Shown here piece after piece: positions 4,683-24,700 of a DNA stretch of 64,000 nt (the stretch's first letter is position 1; the number at the start of each line of letters is the position of its first letter). The stretch spans positions 35,311 through 99,310 of the forward strand of contig JAJDTI010000001.1 of assembly GCA_022827245.1 (NCBI GenBank). The letters run 5' to 3'. A model generated the notes under the pieces. The model did not search any database, had not been told where the DNA came from, and saw only the letters and a list, made by a program, of their open reading frames with translations. Both the position numbers and the translations under genes were made by a program. Source of the DNA: Pseudomonadales bacterium (GTDB lineage: Bacteria > Pseudomonadota > Gammaproteobacteria > Pseudomonadales > Azotimanducaceae).

Positions 4683-5471
4683 ATGGCCGAGCACTACGAG
4701 AACCTCACCGTCGAACGGGACGGACACGTCGCCGTCGTCACGTTCAACCGGCCCAGCAGGGCGAACGCCCTCGACCACGCGCACCTGGTCGACATCGAGG
4801 CGGCCGCCCTGTCCTTTCGCGAGGACGCCGACACCCGCGCGATCGTCTTCACCGGCGCCGGCAAGCACTTCTCCTCCGGGCACGACCTGGACTCGAGGCC
4901 GCCCGACGGCGACCTGGTCCGCCGGCGCCGCACGGCACGCATGGGCGAACGCGCCGTGCAGGCGTTGCAGGACATCGACCAGATCACCGTCGCCGCGTGG
5001 AACGGCGCCGCGATGGGCGGCGGCGCCTGTCTCGCCACCGCGCTCGACCTGCGCATCGGGGCGGACGACTGCTTCATGCAGTATCCGGAGATCGACATCG
5101 GCGTGAACCTGATGTGGAAGAGCCTGCCCCTCATCACGCACATCGCCGGGCCGTCCCGCGCCAAGCGCCTGGTCGTCGGCGGAGAGCGGGTCCACGCGGA
5201 GACGCTCCTGGCCTGGGGCGTACTCGACGAACTCGTCCCGCGGCCGCAGCTCCTCGACCGGGCGCTGGAAGTCGCGGCCTTCTATGCCGCCAAGCCGCCC
5301 ATCGCGGCACAGATGATCAAGCGCAGCGTCAACGCGATCGTGTCCTCCCTCGACACGGCGGTGATGCACATGGACGTCGACCAGAACCTGCTCACGGCGA
5401 TGACGGAGGACCGGCGCGCGGCCATCCAGGCCTACCTCGACAAGACGAAGCCCACTTTCACGGGCAACTGA
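4683..5471 (+). CDS. Enoyl-CoA hydratase/isomerase family protein
   Basis: I chose ATG 4683 (MAEHYENLTVERDGHVAVVTFNRP) over the ORF-track start at 4509, because 4509 would translate through the intergenic palindromes and terminator. The 262-residue protein has the crotonase fold: TFNRPSRANAL, the oxyanion-hole segment GAGKHFSSGHDL, and AAWNGAAMGGGACLATALDLRIG. LVPRPQLLDRALEVAA and KPPIAAQMIKRSVN complete the C-terminal trimerisation part. The residues for hydration are not the standard Glu pair, so hydratase, isomerase or another crotonase activity is possible. It heads a three-gene plus-strand run. Confidence 0.88.
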   Translation: MAEHYENLTVERDGHVAVVTFNRPSRANALDHAHLVDIEAAALSFREDADTRAIVFTGAGKHFSSGHDLDSRPPDGDLVRRRRTARMGERAVQALQDIDQITVAAWNGAAMGGGACLATALDLRIGADDCFMQYPEIDIGVNLMWKSLPLITHIAGPSRAKRLVVGGERVHAETLLAWGVLDELVPRPQLLDRALEVAAFYAAKPPIAAQMIKRSVNAIVSSLDTAVMHMDVDQNLLTAMTEDRRAAIQAYLDKTKPTFTGN

Positions 5472-11823: not shown

Positions 11824-12291
11824 ATGAGACGCGCTATCGTCGGCTTCCGTCAGGACGAACACGAAGACTGGGTGGCCGACCTCGACTGCGGCCACCGCCA
11901 GCACGTACGCCATCGCCCGCCGTTCATCTTGCGGCCCTGGGTGGAAGACGCCGCAGGGCGCGAGTCGCACCTGGGCACCCGACTCGACTGCGCGCTTTGC
12001 GACCGCATGGAGTGGCCCGACGGCCTGGCCGCCTACGCTCGCACTCCGGAGTTCGACCAGGACACGGTGCCGCGTGGGCTCGTCTCCTCTCACACCACCA
12101 GGACCGGTGTCTGGGCACGCATCCACGTGCTTGAGGGCACGATCCTGTATCGGGTGGAAGCTCCCGTGGACCGCTGCGTGCGCTTGGGAGCCCCGGCCAC
12201 TGGCATCGTCGTCCCCGAGGTCCCCCACCACGTGGAGCCGCAGGGGCCGGTGCGCTTCTTCGTCGAGTTCTTTCGGCTCGCGCGGGATTGA
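11824..12291 (+). CDS. DUF3565-DUF1971 fusion protein
   Basis: A 155-residue two-part protein. Residues 1-60 (GFRQDEHEDWVADLDCGHRQHVRHRPPFILRPWV...LDCALCDR) match DUF3565: a CGH motif and a CxxC pair suggest a metal site. Residues 65-155 (YARTPEFDQDTVPRGLVSSHTTRTGVWARIHVLEGTILYRV...PEVPHHVEPQGPVRFFVEFFRL) match the DUF1971 cupin also found in tellurite-resistance TehB-like proteins. Function unproven; small-molecule or metal binding is the best guess. Divergent from ileS. Confidence 0.8.
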   Translation: MRRAIVGFRQDEHEDWVADLDCGHRQHVRHRPPFILRPWVEDAAGRESHLGTRLDCALCDRMEWPDGLAAYARTPEFDQDTVPRGLVSSHTTRTGVWARIHVLEGTILYRVEAPVDRCVRLGAPATGIVVPEVPHHVEPQGPVRFFVEFFRLARD

Positions 12292-12315
12292 CGCGAAGCC
12301 TTGCGGGCCTAAAAT
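12288..12315 (+). promoter_or_regulatory. Sigma70-type promoter of the vapBC pair
   Basis: TTGACG at 12288-12293 and TAAAAT at 12310-12315 are separated by 16 bp, close to consensus. This places the transcription start about 20 bp before the antitoxin ATG at 12342. The -35 box overlaps the stop of the upstream gene. Confidence 0.6.
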
Positions 12316-12341
12316 GCCATCATGTTGGCGGATATGACGAC

Positions 12342-12590
12342 ATGATACGCACCCAGATTCAGCTCACCGAGGAGCAACTCAGAAGCCTCAAGGCCCTCGC
12401 CCGCGAGGAGGAACGTTCCGTTGCCGACCTCGTCCGCCAGAGCGTTGCCGAGTACCTGGTGCGCCGACCCACGGTGGACCGCGCCGAGCTGGTCCGACGC
12501 GCCCGCGGCCTGATCGGCCGGTACCGGTCCGGAATTCCCGATCTGGCCGAGAATCACGACCGCTACCTCGACGACGCGTTCGACACGTGA
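12342..12590 (+). CDS. Ribbon-helix-helix antitoxin (VapB/CopG type)
   Basis: An 82-residue protein starting MIRTQIQLTEEQLRSLKALAREEERSVADLVRQSVAEYLV, the CopG/Arc ribbon-helix-helix pattern (one beta strand, two helices). I chose ATG 12342 because it begins exactly at the RHH strand; the ORF-track start is a TTG that overlaps the promoter. The acidic C-terminal part (GIPDLAENHDRYLDDAFDT) would wrap the toxin. Its TGA overlaps the toxin GTG (GTGA). Confidence 0.88.
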   Translation: MIRTQIQLTEEQLRSLKALAREEERSVADLVRQSVAEYLVRRPTVDRAELVRRARGLIGRYRSGIPDLAENHDRYLDDAFDT

Positions 12591-13003
12591 GCCTGTTCGT
12601 CGACACGTCCGCGATCGTGGCCATCGTCGACGCCGGCCAGGATCGGCACGCGGACGCCGCAGCAGCGTGGGAGGCCGCCCTCGAATCCGGCCGCGCGCTG
12701 TACACGTCGAACTACGTGCTCGTCGAGACGTTCGCCCTGGTGCAGCGCCGTCTCGGGTTGGCGGCGTGCAGGGAGGTCTCGACCACACTCGTTCCGCTCC
12801 TGAGTCCCTTGTGGGTGGACGAAGCCCTCCACGAGACCGCCCTGGCAGCCGTGTTCGCGGCCGATAGCCGGAGCCTCTCGTTCGTCGACTGCACGAGCTT
12901 CGAGATCATGCGCCGCCACGGACTCGGGGAAGCCCTGACCCTGGATCGCGACTTTACGCGGCAGGGTTTCCTCGTTGCGCCGAACCCGCGCGGTTCCGTC
13001 TGA
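12587..13003 (+). CDS. PIN-domain toxin (VapC type)
   Basis: A 138-residue PIN ribonuclease: Asp in FVDTSA (residue 6), Glu in NYVLVETFAL, Asp in SFVDCTSFEIM and Asp in LTLDRDF give the acidic catalytic set. The GTG start overlaps the antitoxin stop by four bases, the usual VapBC coupling. The likely target is tRNA or rRNA by family. All catalytic positions are intact, so the module looks active. Confidence 0.9.
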   Translation: MSLFVDTSAIVAIVDAGQDRHADAAAAWEAALESGRALYTSNYVLVETFALVQRRLGLAACREVSTTLVPLLSPLWVDEALHETALAAVFAADSRSLSFVDCTSFEIMRRHGLGEALTLDRDFTRQGFLVAPNPRGSV

Positions 13004-13074: not shown

Positions 13075-13941
13075 ATGAAACTCGGCATCGTCTTCCCCCA
13101 CGACGAGATCGGCACGGACCCGATCGCCATCCGCGACTACGCCCAGGGCGCGGAGGCGCTCGGCGCGGACCACATGATGATCTACGACCACGTGCTCGGG
13201 GCCGATCCCGACCGGCCGGGCGGCTGGGACGGCCCGTACGACAAGGACGTGGCCTTTCACGAGCCCTTCACGCTCTTCTCGTACATGGCCGCCGTCACCG
13301 AGCGCATCGAGTTCGGCACGTGCGTGCTGGTCCTGCCGCAGCGGCAGACCGCACTCGTGGCCAAGCAGGCGGCGCAACTGGCGATCCTTTCCGGCAACCG
13401 CTTCCGGATGGGCATCGGCGTCGGCTGGAACACGGTGGAGTTCGAGGCGCTCGACGTCCCGTTCGAGCACCGCGGCGCGCGCCAGGCCGAGCAGGTCGAA
13501 CTGATGCGCCGGCTGTGGACCGAGGACAGCCTCACCTTCGAGGGGGACTACCACACGGTTACGCAGGCAAGCATCCTGCCCCGGCCGACCCGCCCGATCC
13601 CCATCTGGTTCGGGGGCGGCGCGCCGTCCGTGCTGCGGCGCTGCGGCCGGCTCGGCGACGGCTGGGTGCCCGTCGGGGTGCCGAACGAGAAGTCCCGGCA
13701 GGCGCTGGCGACCATCCGGGAAGCGCGCGAGGCGGCAGGACTGCCGTGGGACGGCTTCGGCGTCCAGGCCCAGGCGCAGACCCGGGGCGGCGATCCGGAA
13801 CGGTGGAAGACCCACCACGACCAGTGGCGGGAACTCGGCTGCACGCACCTCGCGATCGTGACGCACTACGTCGGACACGGCACGAACGTGGACGCCCACC
13901 TAGCATCGGCGCGGCGGTACTTCGAGGCCGTGGCGGACTGA
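13075..13941 (+). CDS. LLM-class (F420/FMN-dependent) oxidoreductase
   Basis: A 288-residue luciferase-like monooxygenase: KLGIVFPHDEIG, YDHVLGAD, ERIEFGTCVLVLPQRQTALVAKQAAQLAILSGNRFRMGIGVGWNTVEFEALDV and PIWFGGGAPSVLRRCGRLGDGWVPVG are the conserved TIM-barrel segments of the F420-dependent subfamily. It may use F420 or FMN; the sequence alone does not decide. It stands alone between VapBC and an MFS gene. Substrate unknown. Confidence 0.87.
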   Translation: MKLGIVFPHDEIGTDPIAIRDYAQGAEALGADHMMIYDHVLGADPDRPGGWDGPYDKDVAFHEPFTLFSYMAAVTERIEFGTCVLVLPQRQTALVAKQAAQLAILSGNRFRMGIGVGWNTVEFEALDVPFEHRGARQAEQVELMRRLWTEDSLTFEGDYHTVTQASILPRPTRPIPIWFGGGAPSVLRRCGRLGDGWVPVGVPNEKSRQALATIREAREAAGLPWDGFGVQAQAQTRGGDPERWKTHHDQWRELGCTHLAIVTHYVGHGTNVDAHLASARRYFEAVAD

Positions 13942-15374: not shown

Positions 15375-15716
15375 TCACCCGGCGAGCCGCAGCTTGCCAC
15401 CGCCAGCCGAACGAGGCCGTCGCACGACGATGTCGATGTCGGGGCCGAGCGCGGTCAGGAGGCGCAGCAGACGCTCCAGTGAGTACTCGCGGAAGTCACC
15501 TCTAAGCAGCCGGGAGACATCGGGCTGGGAGAGCCCGAGCAACCGTGCGGCCTCGGTCTGGGTAAGGCTACGCTGGCGGATGATCGCGTCGATCCGGGAA
15601 ACGAGTCCGGCCTTCAGGAGATGGGCGTCGGCATCCGGCAGACCCAGATCAGCGAAGACGTTGCCGCTGCCGCGCTCTACGTCGGTGTCACGGGTGTCCA
15701 TGGCATCATCGGTCAT
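15375..15716 (-). CDS. HigA-type HTH antitoxin
   Basis: A 113-residue protein with a Cro/C1-type HTH (SRIDAIIRQRSLTQTEAARLLGLSQPDVSRLLRGDFREYSLERLLRLLTALG). Start ATG 15716 overlaps the end of the toxin gene by 11 bp; the longer ORF-track version (201 aa) is only the shadow of the toxin frame. The toxin-first order and the HTH antitoxin are typical of HigBA modules. It probably represses its own promoter through the palindrome at 16082. Confidence 0.88.
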   Translation of the reverse strand: MTDDAMDTRDTDVERGSGNVFADLGLPDADAHLLKAGLVSRIDAIIRQRSLTQTEAARLLGLSQPDVSRLLRGDFREYSLERLLRLLTALGPDIDIVVRRPRSAGGGKLRLAG

Positions 15717-16062
15717 CAAGCGTCTCCTGGTGGTGGCGTTCGGCGGCGCGCAGCCGGCGCGCAATGAGATCGAGTTCGCGTTTCGGCGTGCGGATCCCGC
15801 GGCTGGACTTCTTCTGGAAGGCGTGCAGCACGTAGATCGCAGCTTCGAAGCGGACGGTGTAGACCGCGCGAAAGGTGTCGCCGTCGTAGCGCGCGGCGAC
15901 CTCCAGGACGCCGGAGCCGAAGCCCTTGAGAGGCTTGGCGTCGCGGTGCCGGAGACCGACCTGGGCCTGGTGGATGGCAAAGCCGATGCGACGTCGCACC
16001 GGATCCGGGAACAGCTTCAGGTCGGTGTTGCTCGATCCCACCCATTGAACCGGTTTCAGCAT
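15706..16062 (-). CDS. HigB/Gp49-like RelE-superfamily toxin
   Basis: A 118-residue protein: KPVQWVGSSNTDLKLFPDPVRRRIGFAIHQAQVG, KPLKGFGSGVLEVAARYDGDTFRAVYTVRFEAAIYVLHAFQKKSSRGIRTPKRELDLIARRL. This is the phage-derived Gp49-like HigB family, whose members cleave mRNA on the ribosome. The conserved ALYVLHAFQKKS..TPK core is intact. It is the first gene of the operon and overlaps higA. Confidence 0.9.
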   Translation of the reverse strand: MLKPVQWVGSSNTDLKLFPDPVRRRIGFAIHQAQVGLRHRDAKPLKGFGSGVLEVAARYDGDTFRAVYTVRFEAAIYVLHAFQKKSSRGIRTPKRELDLIARRLRAAERHHQETLDDR

Positions 16063-16144: not shown

Positions 16145-16156
16145 GCCCGCCCCTAC
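16145..16156 (-). repeat. Partial REP-like element at the TonB receptor stop
   Basis: GTAGGGGCGGGC on the minus strand contains the TAG stop (16153-16155) of the TonB receptor. The first 12 bases are identical to copy 1 at 15270, but the second palindrome arm is poorly conserved. Confidence 0.45.
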
Positions 16157-18762
16157 CACTCCAGGCCGACCTTCACGTAGGCAAACCGCCCGTTGAATCC
16201 GCCCGGCGCGTACTGGCTGAAGCGGTTGCCGAGGCCGGTGCGGGCGTTGGGATTCTCCTCCGGCGTCTCGTCGAACAGGTTCTCCGCACCGAACGTCACG
16301 GTCAGGGAGTCCGTCGCGACGTAGTGGACCAGGACATCCACCATGCCGTAGCCGTCGAAGTCGAGACCTTCCTCCGAGTCGTACCACCCTCCGTAGCGGT
16401 TCAGGCGCGCCGTGACGTCGAACCGGCCGAGCGAGTGGCTGGCCGACAGGAGCAGGCGCCGCTTCGGCAGACCGGCCTCGTAGTCGCGGATCTCGCGCGC
16501 GTCGTCGAGCGGGCCGCCCGGGGTGTAGCGGTCTACCTCGGTGTCCGTAAGGTTGTACGCCCCGGTGAAGACGGTGAAGCCCGCCGCCGTTTGCAGGCGG
16601 TAGCTGCCGGTCGCCTCGCACCCCGTGGTGACGGTGGTGAAGTCGTTGGTGAAATAGTTGATGTAGTTCCAGCTTCGCGCCGACGTGAGGCCCGCGCGTT
16701 CGAGCATGGCGAGCAGGTCGCCCCGCACGCGGTCGCGGCCGAGGTCGGGCCGGTTCAGCTCGATGTCGCGAGACAGCGCGAGCCGGTCGCGGACCCGGAT
16801 ACGGTAGCAGTCCAGGGACGCCGTGAGCGATGCGCCGACGTGGACCAGTCCCAGCGAGAGGTGGGTGGACCGCTCCGGCTTCAGCGGCGCGCCGCCCAGG
16901 ACCACGCCGACCGGGCTCGTCGGGGCGATCGTCGAGACGATGGACAGCGCGCGCTCGGCGCCCTCCCCGCCGATCTTCGACGTGGCATTGATGGCGTTCG
17001 ACTGGCCGGGCGTGGGTGCGCGAAAGCCCGTGCTCACGGTACCCCGCAGCGCCAGCCGGTCGTTCAGGGCGAAGCGCGAGGCCAGCTTGCCGTTCGTGGT
17101 GCCGCCGAAGTCCTCGTAGTCCTCCCACCGTACGGCCAGGCCCACGGTCCAATGGGGCCGCGGGTCGGCCTCAATGTCGGCGTACAGCGCCCGGTTGGCG
17201 CGCGACCACCGCCCGGCCGTGTCCGGGCTGAATCCGGGGAAGCCATTGGTGGCCGCGGTGAACCCCTGGGACTGGAGATCGACCGCGGCCCCCATCCAGT
17301 CGAAGCGGCGTTCCCACGACGCCGGCTCGCCGCCGCGGATCTCGAACTCCTCCTCGCGCCACTCGGCGCCGAACGCAAGGTTCGCAGCGTCCGCCAGGAC
17401 ACCCCAGTCGAGCGGATAGGCCAGGTCCACGTTGACGGTCGTTTCGCGTTGGACGTAGTCGCCCGGGTCGAAGCGGTAGTCCGCGGGATTGGCGGGTCCG
17501 AGCGCGGCGTTGACGGTGTTGTAGATGAAGAAGTCCACGTCGCTGACGCCGGTCCCGACACTCAGGTCCCACGTGAGCCCGCCGTCCCGCCCGCCCCGCA
17601 GGCCCGCGAAGGCCGAGTAGTCGGTCGTGTGGCCCCCGAAACGCGGCGTGAACCCGCCGGGAAACAGCGCGTTCATCACGAAGCAGCTGGGATGCGCTTC
17701 GCGGAATGCGTCCGACTGAAACACGCCGTTCGCGTAGTAGGCGCCCTCGGGTGCGAGGTCGGCCGGGCACGCGCCGGAGTTATCGCCCGTCAGGTCGCCC
17801 ACCAGGCGGTGTGCGCCTTGGGTATAGACGCCCTCGCGGTCGTTGGGATTGCGGTAGTAGAAGCCGCCGTCCGTTTCCTTGGTTGCGTAACTCGCGAACG
17901 CGTAGGCCTCCACGCGCTCCGTCGGCCAGAAGCCCAGATTCAGGAAGGTCTTCAGATTGTCCCTGACCTCGGGGCTCCCCCAGAGCTGCGCCGGATCGGG
18001 CACGGCCGCGTTGCCGGCGGCCGCGAGCGCCGCTGCGTCGGCGCGCTGCACGCTGCGCACCGTGTCCCCGGACTCGCCGTACTCCACGGTGAGGTTCGCG
18101 AAGCCGGCGGCGCCGAGGGCGATGCCGCGATTGACGGCGACGGTGACCGCTTCGCCATCCCCCGCCGCGGTGCGGCCGTAGCGCACCTCGGCGGCGCCGC
18201 CGGCGGCGGCGTCCTTGAGCACGAAGTTCATCACGCCGGCAACGGCGTCGGACCCGTACTGCGCCGCCGCGCCATCGCGGAGCACCTCGACGCGTTCCAG
18301 CGCCATGGACGGAATCACGGACAGGTCCGGCCCCTGCGCCCCTTCCGAGGCCTTCGGCACGAGCCAGGCGATGACCGCGCCGCGGTGGCGCCGCTTGCCG
18401 TTCACCATCACGAGGGTGTGGTCGGCGGCGAGATTGCGGATGTTGGGCGGGCGAACGATGGTCGCGCCATCGGCGATCGGCTGCATGTTCACGTTGAACG
18501 ACGGCACGCTGTCGCGCAGCAGATCGAGCACGTCCGTGCCGCCGCGTTCCCGCAACGTGGCGCCGTCGACCACGTGCACGGGAGACTTCGACTCCGCCGC
18601 GCTCTGCCCCGCGCGCCGGCTGCCCACCACGACGACCAGCTCCTCGATGCCGTGCGTGGCCGGTTGCTCGTCCGCGGCCATCCCGGGCGGTGCCGACGCC
18701 AGGCAGAAGGCCGCCACCGCGCAGCGGGGCATCCAGGGTTGTCGGCATCTGGTCAAGGGCAT
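16153..18762 (-). CDS. TonB-dependent outer-membrane receptor
   Basis: About 869 residues. I chose ATG 18762 (MPLTRCRQPWMPRCAVAAFCLASAPPGMAADE), which begins a credible signal peptide; the ORF-track start at 18801 is TTG. A TonB-box-like segment (EELVVVVGSRR) is followed by the plug (SPVHVVDGATLRERGGTDVLDLLRDSVPSFN, IRNLAADHTLVMVNGKRRHRGA, ERVEVLRDGAAAQYGSDAVAGVMNFVLK) and the barrel, ending GRFAYVKVGLEW with the terminal aromatic residue expected for Bam insertion. The ligand is unknown. It is divergent from a Rieske oxygenase across a region carrying the TetR-type palindrome, so it may import that enzyme's substrate. Confidence 0.92.
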   Translation of the reverse strand: MPLTRCRQPWMPRCAVAAFCLASAPPGMAADEQPATHGIEELVVVVGSRRAGQSAAESKSPVHVVDGATLRERGGTDVLDLLRDSVPSFNVNMQPIADGATIVRPPNIRNLAADHTLVMVNGKRRHRGAVIAWLVPKASEGAQGPDLSVIPSMALERVEVLRDGAAAQYGSDAVAGVMNFVLKDAAAGGAAEVRYGRTAAGDGEAVTVAVNRGIALGAAGFANLTVEYGESGDTVRSVQRADAAALAAAGNAAVPDPAQLWGSPEVRDNLKTFLNLGFWPTERVEAYAFASYATKETDGGFYYRNPNDREGVYTQGAHRLVGDLTGDNSGACPADLAPEGAYYANGVFQSDAFREAHPSCFVMNALFPGGFTPRFGGHTTDYSAFAGLRGGRDGGLTWDLSVGTGVSDVDFFIYNTVNAALGPANPADYRFDPGDYVQRETTVNVDLAYPLDWGVLADAANLAFGAEWREEEFEIRGGEPASWERRFDWMGAAVDLQSQGFTAATNGFPGFSPDTAGRWSRANRALYADIEADPRPHWTVGLAVRWEDYEDFGGTTNGKLASRFALNDRLALRGTVSTGFRAPTPGQSNAINATSKIGGEGAERALSIVSTIAPTSPVGVVLGGAPLKPERSTHLSLGLVHVGASLTASLDCYRIRVRDRLALSRDIELNRPDLGRDRVRGDLLAMLERAGLTSARSWNYINYFTNDFTTVTTGCEATGSYRLQTAAGFTVFTGAYNLTDTEVDRYTPGGPLDDAREIRDYEAGLPKRRLLLSASHSLGRFDVTARLNRYGGWYDSEEGLDFDGYGMVDVLVHYVATDSLTVTFGAENLFDETPEENPNARTGLGNRFSQYAPGGFNGRFAYVKVGLEW

Positions 18763-18867
18763 CCACAAGGACCGTACGTCACCACCCCTCCGTCGGGGCA
18801 ATCGACCTGCGCAAACGCCTGATCCGCGCTACGTATCTTCTCATGCGCGATTGCATGATGTACGTCG

Positions 18868-18885
18868 TGAGACATCTATGTATCA
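18868..18885. promoter_or_regulatory. Probable TetR operator, copy 1 (TonB receptor / Rieske promoter region)
   Basis: TGAGACAT-CT-ATGTATCA is a near-perfect palindrome (one mismatch) in the TonB/Rieske divergent region. Its arms match those of the perfect palindrome at 20965-20982 next to the tetR gene, with the same 2 bp centre spacing. This suggests one regulator controls both promoters. Confidence 0.6.
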
Positions 18886-18931
18886 TGGCGGGGAATGAAA
18901 TCGAAGCGAGGAGGTTGCCGAAGGGCAACGT

Positions 18932-20020
18932 GTGAAGACCGCTGACGCCGGACAATCGACCTTCGACCCGGCCCGGGCGCTGCCCGCGGCCGCGTACAGG
19001 GATCCAGGATGGCTCGCGGCCGAGAAGGACCGCATCTGGCACCGCGACTGGGTCTTCGCGACCACCGAGGACGCGCTCGCGGAACCGGGCGACCAGGTTC
19101 CCGTGACGATCGGCGATCAGCCTGTTCTGCTCCTGCGCAACCAGGCGGGCGAACTGGTGGCCCTGTCGAACCTGTGCGCCCACCGGGGGACGCTGCTGGT
19201 CGAGCAGCCAGCCAACGCCAGGCGCATTCAGTGCCCCTACCATGCCTGGACCTACGACGACGCCGGTCGACTGGTCGGCGCGCCTTTCGCGCCGAGCGGC
19301 GTCATCGACAGATCGGCCCACCGTCTCCCCACGTATCGTGTCGAGTCCTGGCACGGGCTCGTGTTCGTCAGCCTCGACGACGGCGTGGAGTCGCTCGCCC
19401 GGCGCTTCGCCTTGATCGAACGGCATGTGTCCGCCGCCGGAATCGATGCCCTGGATCACCGGGCAGACATGCAATCGGCGGAAACGTGGGCCTGCAACTG
19501 GAAGGTCGCGATCATCAATGCCATGGAGAGCTATCACCTCTTCAAGGTCCATCCCGAGACCCTCGAACCCTTCACGCCCACCAGGGATGCTTACTACGTC
19601 GCGGGTTCCGCCCGGGCGACCGCCACCGGCGGCGCGTTCAAGGGCCAGGACGACTATCTGCTGCTCAGCCTGCCACCCGGGTTCGTCGGGGTGCTCACCC
19701 GAGGGAGCTTCGTCTGGCAGGCCGTGCACCCGGTAGACAGCGACCGTTGTGCTGTCCGCACCGGGGGAGCCTACGCATCCCACCGACCCGCCAGCCCTTT
19801 CGGACGGATCGGCAAGTGGCTTGGTCGGGCGGCCGCAGCCGCGTACCCGCAACCCGACTTCCTGCGGGAGGACAAGGCCATCTGCGAGCGCGTACAGCGC
19901 GGCGTCACCGGCGATTTCCTTCCGGGCACCCTGGTACCCATCGAGCGGGTCGTGCGCGATTTCGGGGACTATCTCAACTGGCGGCTCAACGACGTCGAGC
20001 CGCCCCTGGCTCGCGACTGA
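18932..20020 (+). CDS. Rieske non-haem iron oxygenase, alpha subunit
   Basis: A 362-residue ring-hydroxylating-type oxygenase. The Rieske [2Fe-2S] ligands are Cys82, His84 (CAHRG) and Cys101, His104 (CPYHAW). The catalytic iron site is in NAMESYHLFKVHP (His202, His207). It starts at GTG 18932, after AAGGG six bases upstream. Alpha subunits of this kind also include carnitine, choline and glycine-betaine demethylases; no beta subunit or reductase is nearby, so the substrate and electron donor are unknown. It is followed after 10 bp by a small membrane protein. Confidence 0.92.
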   Translation: MKTADAGQSTFDPARALPAAAYRDPGWLAAEKDRIWHRDWVFATTEDALAEPGDQVPVTIGDQPVLLLRNQAGELVALSNLCAHRGTLLVEQPANARRIQCPYHAWTYDDAGRLVGAPFAPSGVIDRSAHRLPTYRVESWHGLVFVSLDDGVESLARRFALIERHVSAAGIDALDHRADMQSAETWACNWKVAIINAMESYHLFKVHPETLEPFTPTRDAYYVAGSARATATGGAFKGQDDYLLLSLPPGFVGVLTRGSFVWQAVHPVDSDRCAVRTGGAYASHRPASPFGRIGKWLGRAAAAAYPQPDFLREDKAICERVQRGVTGDFLPGTLVPIERVVRDFGDYLNWRLNDVEPPLARD

Positions 20021-20030
20021 TCCGAACTCC

Positions 20031-20291
20031 ATGGAACCAGTCGGAACGCCGTCCCAAAGCCGGTTCCGGCCGTGGCTCACCTGGGCCGCGCTGGCGGCGA
20101 TCTGGTGCGCCGCGGTCCTGGATCAGCTTTGGGTGTTCTCGCTTCTCCTGGTGGCGTGGGCCCTCTACGACATCCGCACGGGGGAGAGCCTCTTCATACA
20201 GCGCATCACCCGACGACAGCAGCCGGTGACGTACTGGATCATCGTGGCGACCTGGCTCTCGTTCGGTCTACTCGGGATCCTGTATCGGTGA
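20031..20291 (+). CDS. Small membrane protein of unknown function
   Basis: Only 86 residues (ATG 20031; the longer ORF-track start is a shadow of the Rieske frame). Two or three hydrophobic segments are visible: LTWAALAAIWCAAVLDQLWVFSLLLVAWALYDI and PVTYWIIVATWLSFGLLGILY. Between them lies RTGESLFIQRITRRQQ on the cytoplasmic side. It is probably co-transcribed with the Rieske gene. I do not recognise the family. Confidence 0.7.
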   Translation: MEPVGTPSQSRFRPWLTWAALAAIWCAAVLDQLWVFSLLLVAWALYDIRTGESLFIQRITRRQQPVTYWIIVATWLSFGLLGILYR

Positions 20292-20330
20292 AGGCCGCCA
20301 ACGGCGGCTCGAGGTGCCCATGCAACAACC

Positions 20331-20888
20331 CTATCGCAGCCCAACAGTCAGGGTGCGCACGGCCAGTTCGGTCGCTTCGTCGGCGCTGAGGTAGCCTTCC
20401 GCAACGGCGTTCCACGCCGTCCAGACGAGTTGATCGATCTGCGCGACGACCCAGGCCGAGGGGACGTCCCTGCCGACATCTCCCTGTTCCTTCAGGTCCT
20501 CGACCAACGCCACGGCCCACTCCAGTTGCGTCCCGTAGCCCTCGTCAACCCTCCGGTCGTCCGTGTAGTTGGTACCGAGGAAACTGTATCGGTCGCCGAG
20601 CGGAATGACCGCCCGGAACATGTTCCGCAGCCGGTCGACGGCGCGTTGACCCGCCGTGGCCTGCGCCCGGACGGCCGCGTTCATGTCCTCGATGCAGCGG
20701 ATCCCGATGGCGCTGACGAGGTCGTCCCGGGTACGGAAATGACGGTGCAGCGTTGCCCGGCCGACGCCGGCCTGGACGGCGATCTCGCTCATCGTCGCAC
20801 CGGCGTTGGCGTTCAGAACGCGAATCGCGGCTTCGACGATCGCCTCCAGGGTCGCCGGACGGATGACGTGTCTTCGAGGTGCGCTCAT
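20331..20888 (-). CDS. TetR/AcrR-family transcriptional repressor
   Basis: A 185-residue regulator with an N-terminal TetR HTH ([50 protein letters not shown]) and a helical ligand domain. It is convergent with the Rieske operon and divergent from the propeller-cytochrome gene; a perfect palindrome overlaps that gene's promoter. The most likely role is repression of the neighbouring genes until a ligand binds; the ligand is unknown. Confidence 0.92.
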
Positions 20889-20944
20889 CCCTCAGTCCCT
20901 ACCGATTCAGGATCGCCCCGCATTACGGGTTGGGACCACGTGTG

Positions 20945-20984
20945 TTGACCCACATACCCCGGTTTGAGACATTGATGTCTCAAA
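20945..20984 (+). promoter_or_regulatory. Promoter and TetR operator, copy 2
   Basis: A -35-like TTGACC (20945-20950) is followed after 17 bp by a weak -10 GACATT. The perfect palindrome TGAGACAT-TG-ATGTCTCA (20965-20982), extended by two more paired bases on each side, overlaps the -10. An operator here would block RNA polymerase. The ATG inside the palindrome (20975) is too close to the -10 to be a start codon. Confidence 0.6.
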
Positions 20985-21004: not shown

Positions 21005-21763
21005 ATGACCGTCAGAACCCGGGCTCAGGGAGTGGTGCCGCCACCGCTTGAACGCCGCATCCCGCTGTCCGCGGGCCTGACCAAAGCCCGCCTTCCCGGG
21101 CTTGCACTGGCGTGCGCATTCTACCTCTCGACGGCGCACGCGGCCGACTTCATCGCTTTCGAGTCGGGCCCGGTGCGCCCCATGGCGCTGTCGCCCGACG
21201 GGCGCATGCTCTACGCCGTCAACACGCCCGACAACCGGCTCGAGATCTTCACGGTGAGCGATGCCGGCACGCTCGCGCATGCAGCAGCGGTCCCCGTGGG
21301 CCTGGAACCGGTTGCCGTCACAGTCCGCAATCCTGCCGAAGCCTGGGTCGTCAACCATCTCTCGGACTCGGTCAGCATCGTCGACACGCAAGCGCTGACG
21401 GGGACCACGCCGGGGGAACCCGGCGTGCCGTTCGTGGCGCGCACGCTCCTCGTCGGCGATGAACCGCGCGACATCGTCTTTGCCCAGGGCCGGGCGTTCA
21501 TCACGACCGCGCACCGTGGCCAGCAGCGTACCCACCCGTCCATTGCCGACGTTCCCGGCGCCGGAGACCACCAACTGCACACGCCGGGGATCGGCCGGGC
21601 GGACGTCTGGGTGTTCGACGCCGAACAACCCGGCCCGGGCGTGGGCGGTACGCCGCTCAGGATCGTCGAACTGTTCGGCGACACGCCACGCGCGCTCGCC
21701 GTGAGCCCGATGGCAACACCGTCTATGCAGCAGTGTTCCATTCGGGAAACCAGACCAGCGTGA
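21005..21763 (+). pseudogene. YVTN-propeller/cytochrome c protein, N-terminal part before a frameshift
   Basis: I chose ATG 21005 because ATG 20975 lies inside the operator. A signal-like segment ([17 protein letters not shown]) leads into YVTN/YncE-type propeller repeats ([53 protein letters not shown]). The frame ends with [24 protein letters not shown]. One missing G at 21709/21710 breaks the expected [18 protein letters not shown], which continues in the next frame. It is either a real mutation or a base error. Confidence 0.75.
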
Positions 21764-24700
21764 TTCACGAAGCCGTGATGTGCCGGGGATTCGAGGATAC
21801 GCCCCGGGGCTACTTCGTCGGCGCCACCTGGGCGCCCCGGCGGGGCGATCAACGCTGCATCGCCGGCCAGGTCCCCGCCCGGCATGCAACCGCGTCTCCC
21901 AACGGACCGGCAGACAAGACCCTGCCCATGGGGCGCCCGTTGCCGAGCACCGGGGCCGACGGCGAGCCCGCTCCGTTCACCGCCATGATCGTCAAATGGC
22001 ATGAAGAGTCCGGCGAGTGGCGGGACTCACGAGGCCTGAACTACTCGAACGGGATCCGTTTCTATCTCCCGGACAGGGACGTGTTCGCGCTCGACGCCGC
22101 CACGCTGGAGGAGGCAGCCAGTTTTCGCCACGTCGGCACGACCCTGTTCAACATGGCGGTCAACCCCGTGACCGGCAGGATCTACGTAGCCAATACCGAC
22201 GCGCAGAACCACATCCGCTTCGAAGGTCCGGGCGTTCGCGGCGGATCCACCGTTCAGGGCAACATCGCGCACACGCAGATCACCGTCATCGATCCCGCCA
22301 CCGGCTCGGTCGACCGGAGGCACCTGAACCGCCATATCGACTATACGGTGCTGAAGGCGTCCGCCGACGTGCGCCGGCACAGCCTGTCCACGCCGCTCGA
22401 ACTGCAGGTGAGCGCCGATGGCGCCACACTCTACGTCGCCGCCCTGGGCTCCGACCGGATCGGCGTGTTCGCCACCGCCGACCTGGAGAACGATGCGCTG
22501 TGGGACGGCACCGGCGAGGAGTTCGATCCGACGGTTGCCAGCGCCGGCTATCTGACGGTGACCGGCGGGCCCGCCGGCCTGCTGCTCGATGAGTCGCGTA
22601 ACGGTGAGAACGGGTTGCTGTACGTTTACACGCACATCGACCGCGGCATTAGCGTGATCGATCCGTCAACCGGCGCCCTCTTGCAGACGGTTCAGCTCCA
22701 CAACCCGGAACCCCCTTCCGTGCTTGCCGGCCGGCGGATGCTGTACGACGCGGACGGAACCTCGTCGAACGGCGAGTCGTCCTGTGCGAGCTGTCATGTC
22801 TTTGGCGACACCGATCATCTGAGCTGGAACCTGGGCAACCCCGATGCGGCAAACTCGGTCAACCCACAACCCTTTCCCACGTTTTCCGATTTTTTCCTGA
22901 ACTGCGATTTCTTCGGCCACTACCCGGGGTGCGAATTCGTGCCCTGGGTCAACGGCAACGGCGACCAGCTCGCGTTTGCCTCGATGAAGGGTCCGATGGC
23001 CACGCAGACCATGCGCGGCATGTCCACCCACGGCCACATGCACTGGCGGGGCGACCGGGCCACAGGCTACTTCGGGACGGACGATGCGCAAACGCTCGAT
23101 GAGAAGCTCTCCTTCAAGAACTTCATCGTCGGCTTCGAGAGCCTGCTCGGCCTGGACGTGGAGCTCACGGACGCCGGCCGTCCCGACAAGCCGCCGGAGG
23201 TCGTTCGACTCGAGGACGACGTCGACGCGTTTGCCGACTTCATGCTGGCCGTGCAACTGCCGCCCAATCCCATCAAGCCGCTGGACAACCGCCACAGCCC
23301 GTCGGCGCGGCTCGGGGACGCGTTCTTCAGCGGGCCGCGACGCTCCGACGGCACCGGCCCGGGATTCGATCTCCCCGACAACCGCAATGGCGCGGAACCT
23401 GACGGCCGCAACTGCGAAGGCTGCCACACCCACGAACCCGCCAAGGGCTTATTCGGCACCGACGGCAGCGCAGGGCACGGCGGTGAAGTGCTGATCCTGA
23501 AGGTCCCGCACCTGCGCAACCTCTACCAGAAGGTAGGCATGTTCGGGCTGCCGAACCGCGAGTACTTCCTCCCCTCCACCACCGAGGCCCACCAGGGGGA
23601 CCAGATCCGCGGTTTCGGGTTCCTGCACGACGGCGCCACCGACAAGCTGTTCAACTTCCTGCAGGGCGCCGTATTCGACGACGGCGCCACGACCTGCGCC
23701 GACCTCGGGGTACCGGACAGCGCCAGTTACGGGGGGTCGTTGGGCAGCTGGTTCGGCTGCGATTTCAGTGACGGAATGGACGTCGGCATCCCCGGGGACA
23801 CGGTGCGGCAAGGCCTGGTCGACTACCTCATGGAGTTCGACACCGACCTCGCGCCGATCGTCGGGCAACAGGTCACGCTGGACGCGACCAACGCCGCATC
23901 CGCCAACCCGCGCATCGACCTGCTGCTCCGGCGCGCTCCGACGCCTTTCGAGTCGTTCATTCTCGGTGGCGCCGTCACCGAATGCGACCTGGTCGTCAAA
24001 GGCGTTGTCGACGGCCAGGCGCGGGGCTGGGTACGGCGCTCCGACGGCAACTTCAAGGACGACCTGGGGTTGACGTGGACGGAAGCCGACGTGCGTGCGC
24101 TCGCCGCGCAGGAAGGTCCCCTGACCTATACCTGCGCGCCGCCGGGTTCAGGGGTGCGCATGGGGATCGACCGGGACGGCGACGACGTGCCGGATGGCGT
24201 CGACAGCCGCCCCTCCCACGCCAACGTCGATCAGAACGACGCGAGATCACTCATGCCTTCGGTGTCCCGAAGCCCTGACTGGCGCTCAGTGCCTCCGCGA
24301 GTCGCTCTCTCCCGCTCCGGACGCTCCGCCGTCCTCGAAGTGGGCGCGTACCTCCTCCATGACGCACCGCTTCAACTCGGCGGGGTCCGCGCCGCCCTCG
24401 GCGTAGCGCTCCGCCAGGAGTTCGAGGTCCCGCTCACCGAAGGACAGGCTGATGCGTGGGCGCTGGATCTTCGCGTAGGGGAGACCGACCAGCTTGCGGA
24501 CGTAGTCGGAGTAGCTGAGGTTCTCGGCCGCCGCGGCAAGCCGGATCCTGCGCATCAGCGACTGCTGGAACTCGAAGTGGACCTGCACCTTCCGGAGCGC
24601 CTGCCGCTCCGCCTGGAAGCGCTCGGCGGACGGCGCCTGCGACCCGCGCCGCCTGGGCCGTCCCCTCCTCATCGCCCCTGGCTGTCCCCCGGCCACATCG

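Follow-up and report, generated by a model that had tools for sequence, protein, structure and literature searches.

Two closely similar inverted repeats lie on either side of a gene for a TetR-type protein in the window, as we call the whole 64,000-nucleotide stretch of DNA analysed. This arrangement raises the question of whether the repeats are operators of that protein and, if so, which genes it would control. The first-pass annotation had proposed that one repressor acts through both repeats on a receptor, an oxygenase, a small membrane protein and a haem-propeller protein. The features concerned are the following.

16153–18801, minus strand: TonB-dependent receptor, 882 aa as listed (Pfam plug and barrel; likely start at the ATG near 18762)
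18868–18885: candidate operator site 2, TGAGACATCTATGTATCA, between the TonB receptor gene (minus) and the Rieske gene (plus); 29.2 bits with the weight matrix described below
18932–20020, plus strand: Rieske non-haem iron oxygenase alpha subunit, 362 aa (Pfam Rieske and Ring_hydroxyl_A, motif, PDB matches)
20031–20291, plus strand: small hydrophobic, likely membrane, protein, 86 aa, directly 3' of the Rieske gene (about 10 bases)
20331–20888, minus strand: tetR, TetR-family repressor, 185 aa (Pfam TetR_N, AlphaFold model)
20965–20982: candidate operator site 1, TGAGACATTGATGTCTCA, between tetR (minus) and the propeller/di-haem gene (plus); 30.2 bits with the same matrix
21005–24280, plus strand: YVTN beta-propeller protein with a C-terminal di-haem part (two CXXCH), frameshifted in the assembly

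Both palindromes were present at these positions with the sequences first reported, sharing arms and spacing: TGAGACAT-NN-ATGTCTCA is perfect at site 1 (20965–20982) and has one mismatch at site 2 (18868–18885). Each is enclosed by a divergent gene pair, tetR and the propeller gene around site 1 and the receptor and Rieske genes around site 2. Within three mismatches the window contains two matches, versus a mean of 0.07 in shuffles, and two matches were reached in none of 100 shuffles. When the whole genome was scanned (4.96 Mb in 208 contigs, 87% complete), matches with at most one mismatch were found only at these two places, the chance expectation estimated from base composition being 0.008 per genome. 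The palindrome is thus not scattered at random, and both sites belong to this locus. The third-best genomic site, with two mismatches, maps to contig C43 at a distance of 1.4 kb from a TetR paralogue that is 52% identical to the window TetR. The same contig carries, at 16876–18878 (L026), a paralogous MFS_2-tetR-Rieske-luciferase-like operon with its own variant operator, TGAGACTTCTTTGTCTCA.

Comparison of intergenic regions showed that the palindrome is retained in relatives that retain the genes. Both sites stand out as conserved islands within intergenic DNA that has otherwise diverged, site 1 in the alignment with L035, L037 and L038 and site 2 in that with L035–L037. In L035, whose TetR is 87% identical to that of the window, both sites are kept at the same positions. 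A -35-like box, GTTGACC, located about 17 nt before site 1, is conserved in 4/4 sequences compared, but a generic sigma-70 scan found no promoter; the proposed overlap of site 1 with a putative -10 region is plausible.

The TetR_N domain of the window TetR was detected with an E-value of 7.9e-10 (38.8 bits, Pfam cut-off 24). Its AlphaFold model is all-helical (pLDDT 91) and matched 238 PDB entries at E ≤ 0.001. The best fold match was LfrR, and structures of FadR, MtrR and KstR2 (4w1u) matched as well.

TetR homologues were gathered from genomes by two routes, giving a pooled set of 97 loci (some being the same contig from two sources) and 88 distinct proteins that are about 33–100% identical to one or other of two query TetRs. 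The region from 300 bases upstream to 60 bases downstream of each tetR start was scanned. The palindrome was found with up to three mismatches at 70 of the 97 loci, versus an average of 0.24 for 200 shuffled-arm palindromes, the largest count being 21 for one shuffle. A weight matrix was then built from the closest sites, which read TGA(G/T)ACA-N4-TGT(C/A)TCA. With a threshold of 9 bits, it detected a site at 93/97 loci, and the loci with a site span at least five phyla. Most sites scored 20–33 bits, and the best background match at the inspected loci was mostly close to 5 bits or lower; L055, L051 and L155 gave weak sites of 9–12 bits. No site was detected at the four remaining loci, three of which are contigs ending beside tetR (two copies of one and another). 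The fourth, L065, does not end beside tetR and yet has no site. Weaker TetR relatives of the genus (L014–L021) had no site in the flanking DNA scanned.

Co-occurrence was evaluated in 206 genomes of the window's family, TetR presence being defined by E ≤ 1e-20. The exact degenerate pattern was found in 16 of the 23 genomes with this TetR and in a single one (G059) of the 183 without it (Fisher p 1.5e-17, a flattering value, since these related genomes also served in part to derive the pattern). In the rest of the class, exact TGAGACA-N4-TGTCTCA occurred in only 2/368 genomes. Because sites accompany 93 of the 97 TetR loci and the pattern co-occurs with the protein, we assign the palindrome as the putative operator of this TetR subfamily, an assignment as secure as a comparison of genomes allows. 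As for known TetR repressors, it lies in the promoter region of the regulator itself and is conserved with it. Hence, we consider it highly probable that the two palindromes are operators of the TetR encoded at 20331–20888, and that the subfamily represses oxygenase loci through a target nearly fixed across phyla while its regulon changes.

A few matches in genomes of the family lie away from tetR, and four of them precede gene types like those that accompany the tetR-linked sites. Two of the four are in front of an FA_hydroxylase-family gene (L176) and a luciferase-like monooxygenase gene (L178). In L177, a site (4866–4883) is flanked by a Rieske oxygenase gene and a PF00141 peroxidase gene, and no TetR of the subfamily was found next to it. 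Another (L174, G040:C36:28000-38500, 5125–5142) separates an FAD-dependent oxidoreductase gene from a luciferase-like/molybdenum-hydroxylase pair; two TetRs of this subfamily are encoded on the same contig. Matches in G307 (a dnaN/dnaA-like region), G406 and G145 were judged to be chance or unexplained.

Two clades were distinguished, that of the window, with 36 proteins, and a sister clade with 48, mostly from Alphaproteobacteria. The recognition-helix segment, residues 40–51, is 94% identical between the two clades, versus 33% in the ligand domain. This conservation is partly selected, because the peptide AGVGRATLH was one of the search seeds, with which most of the distant homologues were gathered. 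In homologues obtained by a profile search without this seed, VGR is replaced by ITR, VTR or TTR, and several operators of that branch have drifted, e.g. TTTGACATTTTTGTCACA and TATGACATATTTGTCTCA. This suggests that the helix and the operator change together. We infer that the window TetR binds DNA carrying TGAGACATNNATGTCTCA.

The genes that accompany the site differ between the clades. In the window clade it is found between tetR and the propeller gene (L035, L038, L040, L041), in front of the Rieske gene (L035, L036, L037, L043, L144, L145), before MFS_2-tetR(-Rieske-luciferase-like) operons (L026, L048, L049, L056, L060) or before propeller-tetR-Rieske operons (L052, L054, L057). In the sister clade it overlaps the tetR start or lies immediately against it. 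What comes next is usually a gene for an FA_hydroxylase-family membrane protein, in some cases with an ABC_membrane_3 protein gene after it. The proposal that one repressor links tetR, the propeller/di-haem gene and the Rieske gene agrees with these conserved sites beside TetR homologues and with the co-occurrence. It is very likely, as judged from comparative sequence data, that tetR, the propeller/di-haem gene and the operon of the Rieske gene and small protein are repressed by TetR.

The proposed inclusion of the TonB receptor is less clear-cut. Site 2 also lies in its upstream region and, in L039, an independent second site immediately precedes the gene for an 800-aa TonB receptor, so that a receptor could be a member of the regulon. 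In contrast, L036 and L037, which are near relatives, retain the site at the Rieske gene but lack this receptor across it. Control of the window receptor by TetR is plausible, with odds from about even to likely.

The Rieske protein has the CxH-CxxH motif and the Ring_hydroxyl_A domain of an alpha subunit. No beta subunit, ferredoxin or reductase gene was found beside its gene in the locus neighbourhood. Its score against the nearest NCBIfam equivalog, glycine betaine monooxygenase GbcA, was 105.5 bits for a cut-off of 670. Since the scores are far under all equivalog cut-offs, we name no substrate, and a steroid or any other named substrate is unsupported. The small protein gene adjoins the Rieske gene in L035–L037 (81–87%), in L043 and L145 and, weakly, in L028; a Pfam search returned no family for the 86-aa protein.

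The propeller gene is frameshifted near 21700 (21700–21763) in this assembly, giving ORFs at 21005–21763 and from 21733 onward. The gene is intact in L035, L038, L050, L057 and L070, and the frameshift is possibly a sequencing error. Most differences from L035 in the downstream part are at third codon positions, hence the gene has recently been, or still is, under selection. Besides the two CXXCH motifs, the protein gave a CCP_MauG match of 20.9 bits, below the Pfam cut-off of 25.6, and an AlphaFold model with a pLDDT of 45, built from 9 sequences. In hydrazine synthase beta-gamma fusions, a YVTN propeller is followed by a haem domain at the C-terminus. The resemblance of the window protein to this family (NCBIfam NF052342) is weak and limited to the propeller, with 18.1 bits for a cut-off of 1250 over about 70 residues of one propeller region, and the assignment was rejected. 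In the 18895–18935 region, L035 and L036 apparently begin their Rieske proteins with an ATG located some 10 bases beyond the palindrome. The window has an equivalent ATG at 18895, but in another reading frame than its Rieske ORF, for which GTG 18932 serves as the first codon; a second indel may be present here.

From the observed sequences, their conservation and their co-occurrence, we infer a system of repression, induction and ligand that could operate as follows. A repressor dimer on site 1 would silence tetR and the divergent propeller/di-haem gene. On site 2 it would silence the operon of the Rieske gene and the small membrane protein gene, and possibly the divergent TonB receptor gene. 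A small molecule, probably hydrophobic, would release TetR from DNA. Across the subfamily, the DNA target TGAKACA-N4-TGTMTCA would have stayed almost constant from phylum to phylum, whereas the set of controlled genes changed: Rieske, propeller, MFS_2 and luciferase-like modules in one clade, the FA-hydroxylase-family membrane protein in the other. We tentatively propose that the regulon has been rebuilt from unrelated oxygen-using enzymes, receptors and transporters, all acting on or against one widespread hydrophobic signal.

Alternatively, the locus could serve the uptake and oxidation of a single compound, imported by the receptor and oxidised by the di-haem protein and the Rieske oxygenase, the compound or its product being the inducer. 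The clustering of these parts, the site of the L039 receptor and the joint travel of the Rieske, propeller and small-protein genes in several relatives are all consistent with such a pathway. This is nevertheless somewhat doubtful: L036 and L037 keep the Rieske gene and its site without this receptor across it, ferredoxin and reductase are absent from the locus, and elsewhere the same operator precedes Rieske, FA-hydroxylase-family, luciferase-like, di-haem and MFS_2 transporter genes. Because the same switch is found on unrelated oxygenases across the subfamily, a shared hydrophobic inducer or a defence function is about as plausible as a single-substrate pathway. In the case of detoxification or defence, a broad, LfrR-like TetR would sense hydrophobic xenobiotics or membrane-active host compounds and switch on oxygenases, transporters and lipid hydroxylases. 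The multidrug regulator LfrR is the nearest solved structure by both sequence and fold, and the targets are diverse oxygenases and transporters. However, the conserved target is never a classical efflux pump, and the MFS_2 relative belongs to the GPH symporters, which are usually importers. We regard both this sensing and this response as rather unlikely.

Assignment of the palindromes to the TetR relies on sequence comparison, and they might belong to another regulator to which tetR is only adjacent. This is very improbable, given the co-occurrence with this TetR across five phyla with different neighbours and the autoregulatory placement of the site right at tetR in the FA-hydroxylase clade. 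A chance resemblance of two inverted repeats, compatible with their few copies in the window, is ruled out by the comparative data, since shuffles, genome scan, homologue loci, other genomes of the class and co-occurrence all argue against it.

The proposed TetR operator system resembles those of the LfrR, MtrR and FadR types in its TetR_N helix-turn-helix, all-helical ligand domain, divergent target and palindromic operator within the shared intergenic region. Identity to LfrR is, however, only 24% over the fold alignment. Those types act on efflux pumps or fatty-acid degradation, whereas the genes here are of the Rieske, di-haem and FA-hydroxylase families; rather than efflux pumps, the conserved targets are oxygenases and the MFS_2 transporter. 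The operator sequences of KstR and KstR2 also differ from the one described here. Despite the fold match with KstR2, the window locus shows no steroid pathway. Both are TetR-type repressors of catabolic genes for cholesterol utilisation in mycobacteria (PMC3068626). CasR (Rv1776c) of Mycobacterium tuberculosis, a TetR protein of 186 aa that controls csm6/cas genes, has a footprinted 20-bp operator, AGTAAGGCTTGTGTCTCACT, containing the same half-site GTCTCA (PMC9953421). Its half-sites are 4 bp apart, whereas 6 bp separate TGAGAC from GTCTCA here. A literature search, with thin coverage of subscription journals, found no description of this operator and nothing on TetR with sterol desaturase or Rieske genes. 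The TetR subfamily with this operator may be previously undescribed, a view we hold with some reserve. Here, sequence alone allowed an operator to be assigned to an entire subfamily of regulators in different phyla. With this candidate operator/repressor pair, the regulon becomes readable by a simple pattern search, and the inducer and substrates of several orphan oxygenases from uncultured bacteria become directly testable.

Judged from isolate names alone, many of the source genomes are apparently sponge-associated. By eye, toxin-antitoxin-like pairs (VapBC-like, RelE/HigBA-like) were seen in the flanking region of the window at 12288–13003 and 15375–16062. A luciferase-like monooxygenase-type protein, also recognised by eye, is encoded near the cluster at 13075–13941, without a palindrome.
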